Part shown: piece by piece, positions 9,626 to 11,636 of the stretch | How positions within the stretch are numbered: the first letter of the stretch is position 1 | How the letters are laid out: each line of letters starts with the position of its first letter | Source of the DNA: Methanoregula sp. PtaB.Bin085 | GTDB taxonomy: Archaea; Halobacteriota; Methanomicrobia; Methanomicrobiales; Methanospirillaceae | Direction: 5' to 3' | Assembly: GCF_002067035.1 (NCBI RefSeq) | Contig: NZ_MVQB01000013.1 | Span: 62,001 to 126,000 of the forward strand | DNA: 64,000 nt | Notes under the pieces: generated by a model | Database searches by the model: none | Told to the model about the DNA's origin: nothing | Seen by the model: only the letters and a program-made list of their open reading frames with translations | Program-made: the position numbers and the translations under genes

Positions 9626-10753
9626 CTACAGAACGCCGCCGTGCTCCCTGTCCTGCTGGAGATCGCGGAGGATGCGCCGGATGTGGCCGATATTGATGGT
9701 CCGTGTTGTCAGGATGCAGAGATGGTTCTCACGATACGGTGCGATGATGACATTTCCCTCCGGGATCTGGAGCGTCATGTGGACAAACGAACCCCAGTCC
9801 AGGTGCGGCGTGATCTTCCTGGTGGTCGCAAGCATCGTGCGCGCAATTTTCAGGAGAGGCTCGATCTCGACGTCCCCCATGAGAAGGATATTCCGATCTT
9901 CGTTGAATACTGAAATGGCAACGATTCCATTGAGTTTCTTGATCTGACCGATGATCCTGATATCCGGGTCCTCAAGGATGGCCGGCTGCGGAACGAAGAC
10001 CCGATCCTTTGCGGCGGTCACAGGTTTTACCGGGACCGCTGCTGCGGGTTTTACCGGAATAGCAGCGGCCGGCATGACGGGCACGGCAGCTTCCGGTTTT
10101 GCGGGTGCGGGAGATGCCGGCCTCACGATCATGGCAGGTTCCGGCTGGACCGGGGCAGCTGCTGCCGGCATTGCAGGTTTTGCCGATCCGGTCATAGCGG
10201 ATCGTTCCGGAGCGGAATACTCCGGCTGTGCAGGTGTGGCAGGTTCCGGCTGCGGGGGGGTATATGAGACCTGCTTGACCGGTGCCGCAGCCATAGGGGA
10301 CTCCCCTGGAGGCTCCGTACGCATTGGCCGCGACGCCGGTTGCACGAGCCGGTGGATTGCAGACGCATCCCCCACTCCAATGGTATCCTCCTCTTCAGCA
10401 CGGGCCGGTACTGTCACAACCTTCTCTGCTGCACTCCCTTCATCCGCCATCGACTCGTCTATGTTGCAGACCTTCAGGGCCTGGGCAAACTCTTCTGGGG
10501 TATATTTGCACAGGTTGAACTCGATGGTGGGGTGGGAATTGAAATAATCCAGGGCCCCGTGTCCATGGAGCTCGATCCGGCCGTGTTTGAAATAATAGAC
10601 AAGCGGCTTTCCTTTCTTGATCAGGATGAAGCCTTCACCGTCCTGGATGACCACACGGACCACGCCGATGAACCTGATGGTATGGGTAAAGATCCACTGC
10701 GGCGGCGCCTGCATCCAGCCAATGCTCTTTCCTTCGGGTAACTTGTCTATCAT
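9626..10753 (-). CDS. Two-domain protein: N-terminal PATAN-like domain, Pro/Ala linker, C-terminal roadblock/LC7 domain
   Basis: The 375-residue protein has a compact N-terminal domain (about 10-100; GFILIKKGKPLVYYFKHGRIELHG then ALDYF; quoted in part) that resembles PATAN/DUF4388-type or DUF2226-type domains by eye. A low-complexity linker (about 105-260) rich in Pro, Ala and Val holds repeats such as PAAAxPVKP. The C-terminal part (about 264-368) looks like a roadblock/LC7 fold: IGQIKKLNGIVAISVFNEDR, then ILLMGDVEIE and CILTTRTINIGHIRRIL. It overlaps the upstream roadblock gene by ATGA. Roadblock proteins commonly regulate small GTPases, so a signalling or polarity role is possible but not shown. 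Confidence 0.7.
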   Translation of the reverse strand: MIDKLPEGKSIGWMQAPPQWIFTHTIRFIGVVRVVIQDGEGFILIKKGKPLVYYFKHGRIELHGHGALDYFNSHPTIEFNLCKYTPEEFAQALKVCNIDESMADEGSAAEKVVTVPARAEEEDTIGVGDASAIHRLVQPASRPMRTEPPGESPMAAAPVKQVSYTPPQPEPATPAQPEYSAPERSAMTGSAKPAMPAAAAPVQPEPAMIVRPASPAPAKPEAAVPVMPAAAIPVKPAAAVPVKPVTAAKDRVFVPQPAILEDPDIRIIGQIKKLNGIVAISVFNEDRNILLMGDVEIEPLLKIARTMLATTRKITPHLDWGSFVHMTLQIPEGNVIIAPYRENHLCILTTRTINIGHIRRILRDLQQDREHGGVL

Positions 10754-11097
10754 AACAGGGAAATGATCGCGTCCTGGTTCTTCTTCATCTCGTACGTTAT
10801 CTGCCCGATATTTGCTGTATTCTTTGCGATGATCACAAGGTAAAACTCTTCCATTACCGGTCCGAGGATGAGGAACGATTCAGAGAACTCCACAAAGACC
10901 ATGGAGAGAGGTGCGTTCCCGAACTGGGTTGCGGTTTTCCGGGAATCCAGCATGATCGTCGCAATGGCATCCTGGAGATCCTGCCTGATCGTGATCCCGG
11001 ACTTCATGCTCTCTATGATCTCCCCGTTCTCCTGGACTACGAGGGCTGCCTGCACGTCATTCAGAATAAGGAATTTGTTCAGGATCTGTTTGAGCAT
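10750..11097 (-). CDS. Roadblock/LC7 domain protein (MglB-like)
   Basis: The 115-residue protein is a single roadblock/LC7 domain: an N-terminal helix LKQILNKFL, strand VQAALVVQENGEIIES, a middle helix, strand LSMVFVEFSESFLILGPV, and a final strand and helix FYLVIIAKNTANIGQITYEM. Such domains dimerise and serve as regulators of small GTPases in bacteria and of other signalling proteins in archaea. No GTPase gene is nearby, so the partner is unknown. It lies between a HAMP membrane protein upstream (110-base gap) and a roadblock-ended protein downstream (ATGA overlap). Confidence 0.8.
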   Translation of the reverse strand: MLKQILNKFLILNDVQAALVVQENGEIIESMKSGITIRQDLQDAIATIMLDSRKTATQFGNAPLSMVFVEFSESFLILGPVMEEFYLVIIAKNTANIGQITYEMKKNQDAIISLL

Positions 11098-11207
11098 GGG
11101 AGTTCCTCTTCTTTCCGGGTCCCTGCATTCATGGTGGTTCCATCGGTTCTGTGGCTCTCTTTTCCGGTATAATATACCGGATCGGCGTTTTTTATCCGCA
11201 GGAGCGG

Positions 11208-11636
11208 TTATTCATTGTCTTCTTTTGACAGGGTATCCAGGATCCGGTAGGTGTTGATCATGCGGTTGAACGCGGTCTGGAGCTCCCCGATCTCATCGTT
11301 GCTGAGCAGCTCGATCTCGGGATCCTTGAGCTCGCCGGTACTCATGCTGGTGGCGATCTTCGAGAGTTTTACGATCGGGTTCGTGATGCTGCTTGCAAGG
11401 AAGAAACTCCACATCACGACAACCGAGAGGGTGATGAGCGTGATGATGAAGATGCTGTTTGTCAGGCCGATATTGCTGATGATGCTGTTCTGGTCGCCCA
11501 TCATGACAATACCCAGCAGGATCATGGGTATGGTCGCGACAAAGAGCATGCTCACCATCAGCTTGTAAAAGATGGGAATCGGGATACTGAATCCCCCGGG
11601 CGCAGGTTTGGGATCCGATTTTTTCATGGCGGTCAT
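11208..11636 (-). CDS. Two-helix membrane protein ending in a HAMP domain
   Basis: The 142-residue protein has two hydrophobic helices (about 24-47 and 61-83) joined by a short outer loop of about 12 residues. A HAMP domain follows (about 82-135; SSITNPIVKLSKIATSMSTG and DEIGELQTAFNRM). There is no kinase, cyclase or MCP output domain after HAMP and no ligand-binding outer domain. It therefore looks like a signal relay that works through a partner, plausibly one of the two roadblock proteins encoded downstream. A TATA-like stretch (TTTTTATATGG, reverse strand near 11663) and a second one closer in precede the start. Confidence 0.78.
   Translation of the reverse strand: MTAMKKSDPKPAPGGFSIPIPIFYKLMVSMLFVATIPMILLGIVMMGDQNSIISNIGLTNSIFIITLITLSVVVMWSFFLASSITNPIVKLSKIATSMSTGELKDPEIELLSNDEIGELQTAFNRMINTYRILDTLSKEDNE

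Follow-up and report, generated by a model that had tools for sequence, protein, structure and literature searches.

A conserved HAMP-roadblock gene cassette in Methanomicrobiales as a candidate membrane-anchored signalling module

MglA-family small GTPases are common in methanogens. In the MglA/MglB system, with RomY and MglC, roadblock proteins form heteromeric pairs and are linked to the pilus machinery; GAP or GEF activity is common among heteromeric roadblock complexes (PMC9481161). The conservon operons of actinobacteria (CvnA-D) combine a HAMP-bearing sensor, a roadblock protein and a GTPase (PMC13343842). Archaeal receptors of the Af1503 type have the HAMP domain as their sole cytosolic part, carry no effector and are associated with a small gene located downstream (PMC4834066), and roadblock proteins of arCOG02603 often lie within archaeal T4P loci (PMC4858521).

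Here we describe a gene cassette whose nearest operon analogue is the conservon and whose nearest membrane analogue is Af1503, although it is a member of neither. It shares with conservons a HAMP-bearing membrane protein and a roadblock protein encoded in one operon, but it is archaeal, has no kinase domain, CvnC or GTPase, and does not show the cvnA-cvnD gene order. Like the Af1503-type receptors, it pairs a C-terminal HAMP domain without effector with a downstream gene; in contrast to them, the HAMP protein has no extracellular sensor, and the partner is a PATAN-like/roadblock protein and not a STAC protein. The cassette recalls MglA/MglB in its roadblock proteins, in their putative heteromeric pairing and in a pilus-machinery link through paralogues, and differs in that the GTPase is encoded far from it and is missing from six cassette-bearing genomes, and in that a HAMP membrane protein belongs to the unit. 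Unlike the arCOG02603 roadblocks of T4P loci, it sits outside a pilus locus and carries a HAMP protein. A literature search, most subscription journals lying beyond its reach, found no description of a HAMP-roadblock cassette.

The cassette was found in a window of 64,000 nucleotides (G000:C13:62001-126000) from a 2.9-Mb genome, whose best named relatives, among the best 80 of 353 matches of a named scan, are Methanoregula and other Methanomicrobiales MAGs. Its genes run on the minus strand in the order HAMP, roadblock, 375-aa protein, so that the three open reading frames proposed in the first-pass annotation, with HAMP upstream of both others, are confirmed. The features are as follows.

11208..11636, minus strand: HAMP-only membrane protein, 142 aa (open reading frame; Pfam HAMP at 41.4 bits, above the cut-off of 25; 22 orthologues at 48-91% identity)
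11499..11579, minus strand: first transmembrane segment of the HAMP protein, about aa 20-46 (by hydropathy; column identity in alignment A3 averages 0.84)
11391..11456, minus strand: transmembrane segment 2 of the HAMP protein, about aa 61-82 (hydropathy)
11253..11402, minus strand: HAMP domain, aa 79-128 (Pfam PF00672)
11220..11255, minus strand: C-terminal tail of the HAMP protein, aa 128-139, proposed docking motif (mean column identity 0.93)
10750..11097, minus strand: lone roadblock/LC7 protein, 115 aa (Pfam Robl_LC7 at 29.6 bits, curated cut-off 23; profile matches to solved roadblocks and MglB)
9626..10753, minus strand: PATAN-like/linker/roadblock protein, 375 aa (open reading frame; 21 relatives in alignment A1)
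10445..10753, minus strand: N-terminal DUF2226/PATAN-like domain, aa 1-103 (model pLDDT 89.5; hhalign 95% to DUF2226, 76% to DUF4388)
9980..10444, minus strand: Ala/Pro-rich linker, aa 104-258 (23% A, 20% P; low pLDDT; variable among aligned relatives)
9638..9979, minus strand: C-terminal roadblock domain, aa 259-372 (fold match to 9jue_F; hhalign 95% to the lone roadblock)

The start of the 375-aa gene overlaps the stop of the lone roadblock gene by 4 nt (ATGA).

Hydropathy places two hydrophobic segments in the HAMP protein, on either side of a ~14-residue loop; the HAMP domain and about 14 further residues follow. The protein therefore has no output domain, since the chain stops there, as had been claimed; it is also sensorless, with only some 14 residues between the transmembrane segments and no extracellular sensor domain. 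Across 23 sequences its most conserved segment is the tail (aa 128-139), exceeding the HAMP domain (mean column identity 0.79) and the N-terminus (0.42). This tail, which is a mark of the HAMP-only family, is kept in relatives both with and without the lone roadblock; its persistence in loci of the latter kind points to the PATAN-like/roadblock protein as the likelier partner. Beyond Methanomicrobiales, the best 80 of 353 matches held only generic HAMP stretches, in which part of the protein aligned at 45% identity at most.

The lone 115-aa protein belongs to the Roadblock/LC7 superfamily by its Pfam match. In the 375-aa protein of the window Pfam finds no accepted domain, the C-terminal roadblock included; Robl_LC7 is nevertheless matched by 14 of its 26 relatives at E<=0.1. 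In the AlphaFold model a linker of poor prediction quality connects two well-modelled domains, and residues ~258-370 superpose on the roadblock 9jue_F (Z 13.4, rmsd 2.4, 108 residues aligned), with many Ragulator and MglB chains also matched. Comparison of the lone roadblock with this C-terminal domain (hhalign 94.9%, E 4.2e-8) indicates, together with the predicted fold, that it is a member of the same superfamily and that the two roadblocks are homologous, in agreement with the roadblock end first assigned to the protein.

The N-terminal domain was modelled alone (106 residues, pTM 0.81). It resembles the N-terminus of DUF2226 (hhalign 95.1%, E 3.3e-8, 96 columns), a family that Pfam itself matches in 2 of the 26 relatives at E>=0.02; as the homology is limited to that N-terminal part, the 375-aa protein does not qualify as a complete member of DUF2226. 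The resemblance to DUF4388 (PATAN) is weaker, at 75.6% over 40 columns, with 1 of 26 relatives matched (E 0.033), and a negative control of roadblock against DUF4388 gave 0.15%. Since DUF4388 was found in only 2 of 246 genomes of the phylum, both under the family cut-off, its alignment was built from eight loci in three genomes reached via unrelated loci. An alpha-helical insertion is reportedly named for PATAN in the title of Makarova 2006; it is absent from the 106-residue model, as a long insert is from some DUF4388 members (alignment A8). The label PATAN-like is thus fair by its resemblance to the DUF2226 N-terminus and, more weakly, to DUF4388, but the helical insertion is missing. A Foldseek search of the PDB returned no known fold at E<=0.001 (best 0.45), and a second structural aligner gave a best Z of 5.0, which does not by itself prove a new fold.

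To establish how widely the genes are kept together, we searched 232 Methanomicrobiales genomes with a HAMP-only profile. At E<=1e-20 it matched 74, of which 69 were retained; five (G218, G219, G220, G227 and G228) were dropped because the match was confined to positions ~50-141 within frames that measure 314-370 aa, and on the same ground second rows were removed in G048 and G008. Gene order in relatives had been set beforehand as the test that could refute the proposed unit, and the PATAN-like/roadblock gene lies directly downstream on the same strand in 67 of the 69 genomes, with positions taken from match tables or opened loci. Of the two misses, one is a contig break in G002, where the HAMP gene ends one contig and the remaining genes lie at the end of a different one; in the other, G167, a truncated HAMP-only gene stands alone (L165:1662-2021, on G167:C33). 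Among the best 80 of 353 matches of the named scan, 18 were orthologues, with 54-85% identity in the best segment; all were from Methanomicrobiales or from records named only Euryarchaeota archaeon, and all 18 had the PATAN-like/roadblock gene downstream, with the lone roadblock present in 10 and absent in 8.

The lone roadblock was found in 46 of the 67 linked loci (G196, G206 and G209 judged by gap size only) and is absent from the other 21, where the gap is below 100 bp; these all belong to one family, which includes named Methanoculleus. A strict triad is rejected by these dyads, and the core is the HAMP protein with the PATAN-like/roadblock protein. What the first-pass annotation called a signalling triad of methanogens accordingly stands as a conserved gene unit of Methanomicrobiales, but with a lone roadblock that is not always present.

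The flanks of the cassette vary between genera. Within the genus, coaBC is present in 38 of 39 genomes, and 30 of the 38 matching loci were opened. The order coaBC-HAMP-roadblock-PATAN/roadblock was read in 9 of these, whereas 17 ran coaBC-pantoate kinase with none of the three cassette genes; 4 were unreadable, and partial cassettes numbered 0 among the 26 readable loci. In Methanoregula, therefore, the interval from coaBC to the pantoate kinase gene holds either the whole cassette or none of it. Taken together, co-occurrence in 67 of 69 genomes, in different neighbourhoods and with gain or loss as a block, argues that the genes form a unit, and the all-or-none presence and differing flanks argue that their linkage is not hitch-hiking on the CoA genes.

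Further signs of partnership come from the N-terminal domain. W20 and H24 are found in 25 of 25 HAMP-linked sequences and in 0 of 7 unlinked paralogues, and M14 and R27 in 24 of 25 and 1 of 7, respectively. We propose these residues as a putative docking face for the HAMP protein, although clade ancestry alone could be explanation enough for the W20/H24 pattern.

The absence of a GTPase gene, pointed out from the start, holds for the surroundings of the cassette but not for the genome: a search for MglA-like GTPases found a small one of ~174 aa beside EF-2 on another contig (L055:7634-8158, on G000:C62). It adjoins no roadblock gene, and none lies within four genes of it. The G3 motif is GTPGQ in 9 of 9 aligned relatives, with the aspartate missing, as in MglA (PMC4316618). 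Small, devoid of the G3 aspartate and from a methanogenic euryarchaeon, the protein has these traits in common with Group 4 MglA, which is almost exclusive to methanogenic Euryarchaeota; in the same 2014 survey, no conserved neighbours turned up for the methanogen MglA group (PMC4316618).

This GTPase is present in 127 of the 232 genomes (130 minus three elongation-factor-type rows, G061, G121 and G125; fragments in G049 and G062 and the interrupted gene of G067 were counted as present), and PATAN-like/roadblock proteins in 150. Both occur in 121 genomes, the roadblock protein only in 29, the GTPase only in 6 and neither in 76. Within the genus the corresponding numbers are 22, 6, 2 and 9 (Fisher p 0.0009, without correction for phylogeny), and on a single-gene coaBC tree of 30 genus genomes those lacking both GTPase and roadblock cluster in a few clades. 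Two genomes that have no roadblock match, G062 and G065, still carry GTPase fragments. The GTPase is missing from 6 of the 69 HAMP-bearing genomes (G002, G003, G004, G007, G008 and G038), three of which are 96-98% complete, and a Roc/Ras-type search of nine genomes including those six yielded, in the six, only long GTPase-type frames and no small single-domain GTPase. An obligate GTPase partner is rejected by these six genomes, and the link between GTPase and cassette is indirect, because the GTPase tracks PATAN/roadblock proteins generally, mostly the pilus-linked pair described below. As a separate observation, in G067 the lone roadblock has an internal stop and the PATAN-like/roadblock gene is interrupted (L017, on G067:C19), and the GTPase is interrupted as well (G067:C4:14281-14773), possibly through joint decay or assembly errors.

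The same genome encodes a second roadblock and PATAN-like/roadblock pair (L036:6417-12627, on G000:C24). It is followed by a gene for a T2SSE-type (PilB3-like) ATPase and two T2SSF/TadC-like genes; oriented divergently to it are another PATAN-like gene, a gene for a small protein and one for an archaeal MinD. The pilus-linked arrangement, a paralogous pair beside a T2SSE-type ATPase, recalls the arCOG02603 roadblocks of T4P loci (PMC4858521) and was seen again in all 9 of the other pair loci examined, as far as the loci reach (L028, L030, L033-L035, L046-L049). In another family, a third pair follows NiFe-hydrogenase genes in two opened loci (L171:508-4478 and L166:694-4604), where it is preceded by a 187-206 aa protein and the NiFe-hydrogenase small and large subunit genes and lies a few kb from the HAMP cassette, divergent to it. 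Elsewhere in the window's genome (L038:5235-6987, on G000:C19), a roadblock gene runs into the start of the gene for a REC-MetOD2 response regulator, and another REC-MetOD2 gene comes next; these apparently form another roadblock signalling operon.

Our favoured reading, to which we give a probability of roughly 0.4, is that the cassette encodes a membrane-anchored roadblock platform, docked via the HAMP tail, that regulates an NTPase, most likely the MglA-like GTPase. The HAMP protein would form a homodimer in the membrane, and its invariant post-HAMP tail would dock the 375-aa protein by the PATAN-like N-domain. The C-terminal roadblock of that protein could pair with the lone roadblock, or self-associate in loci that lack the lone one, so that a heteromeric platform of roadblocks is assembled at the membrane. 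Altered packing of the HAMP domains would then change or position the platform and so regulate the NTPase, for which the orphan GTPase encoded elsewhere in the genome is the most likely candidate; the output would probably be a surface machine, for instance the type IV pilus, next to whose genes a paralogous pair is encoded. This model is supported by the linkage in 67 of 69 genomes with changing flanks, the all-or-none loci (9 with, 17 without), the 4-nt overlap, the tail conservation, the W20/H24 pattern, the roadblock homology, the pilus-linked paralogues and the GTPase co-occurrence. Against it count the six GTPase-less cassette genomes, the indirect GTPase link and the position of the cassette, beside which no pilus genes were seen in the opened loci.

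These same observations bear on other readings. The same membrane platform might serve a client other than a small GTPase, regulating or positioning a different NTPase, for example an assembly ATPase of the type IV pilus or one like MinD, contacted directly via the PATAN-like domain. PATAN domains bind PilB in cyanobacteria (PMC10519157), the paralogous pair adjoins genes for a PilB/T2SSE-type ATPase and two T2SSF/TadC-like proteins, with a MinD gene in divergent orientation, and some cassette-bearing genomes have no GTPase; since no gene of this kind adjoins the cassette itself in the opened loci and the family co-occurs strongly with the GTPase, we regard this client as somewhat unlikely. 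HAMP domains are interchangeable relays, so the HAMP-only protein might instead mix with HAMP chemoreceptors or kinases, with the roadblock proteins as adaptors in those pathways, and the apparent operon of another roadblock gene with two REC-MetOD2 regulators would fit such a role. It is an improbable one, as no receptor, kinase or che genes were seen beside the cassette in the window and opened loci, and the conserved tail marks a HAMP-only family.

Regulation of coenzyme A biosynthesis, suggested by the place of the cassette between coaBC and the pantoate kinase gene, has in its favour that the coaBC position is shared by the window, 8 other genus loci, L020/L044 and L083. As the main reading it is rejected: the 17 genus relatives with adjacent coaBC and pantoate kinase genes lack the cassette, other genera place it elsewhere, and G058 keeps the CoA genes together with the cassette on another contig, which leaves this role highly improbable.

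A wider form of the platform model can be envisaged, in which a sensorless HAMP hairpin, as a kinase-free transmembrane switch, passes on its conformational state directly, by way of a PATAN-like adaptor, to a roadblock platform and thereby controls the orphan methanogen MglA-type GTPases, and in which the platform family is exchangeable across membrane (HAMP), pilus and hydrogenase contexts. We consider this extension speculative and, as a whole, unlikely.

Judged from gene order and sequence, the cassette is a real, conserved module of Methanomicrobiales and a putative variant of roadblock-based signalling. As a conserved, membrane-anchored roadblock cassette, it provides concrete candidate partners for the small GTPases of methanogens. 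If the platform model is true, it would represent an unusual HAMP output, a roadblock platform rather than a kinase, cyclase or chemoreceptor. Membrane roadblock platforms are central to Rag and Rab signalling in eukaryotes, and archaeal platforms of this kind would bear on the origin of the eukaryotic versions.
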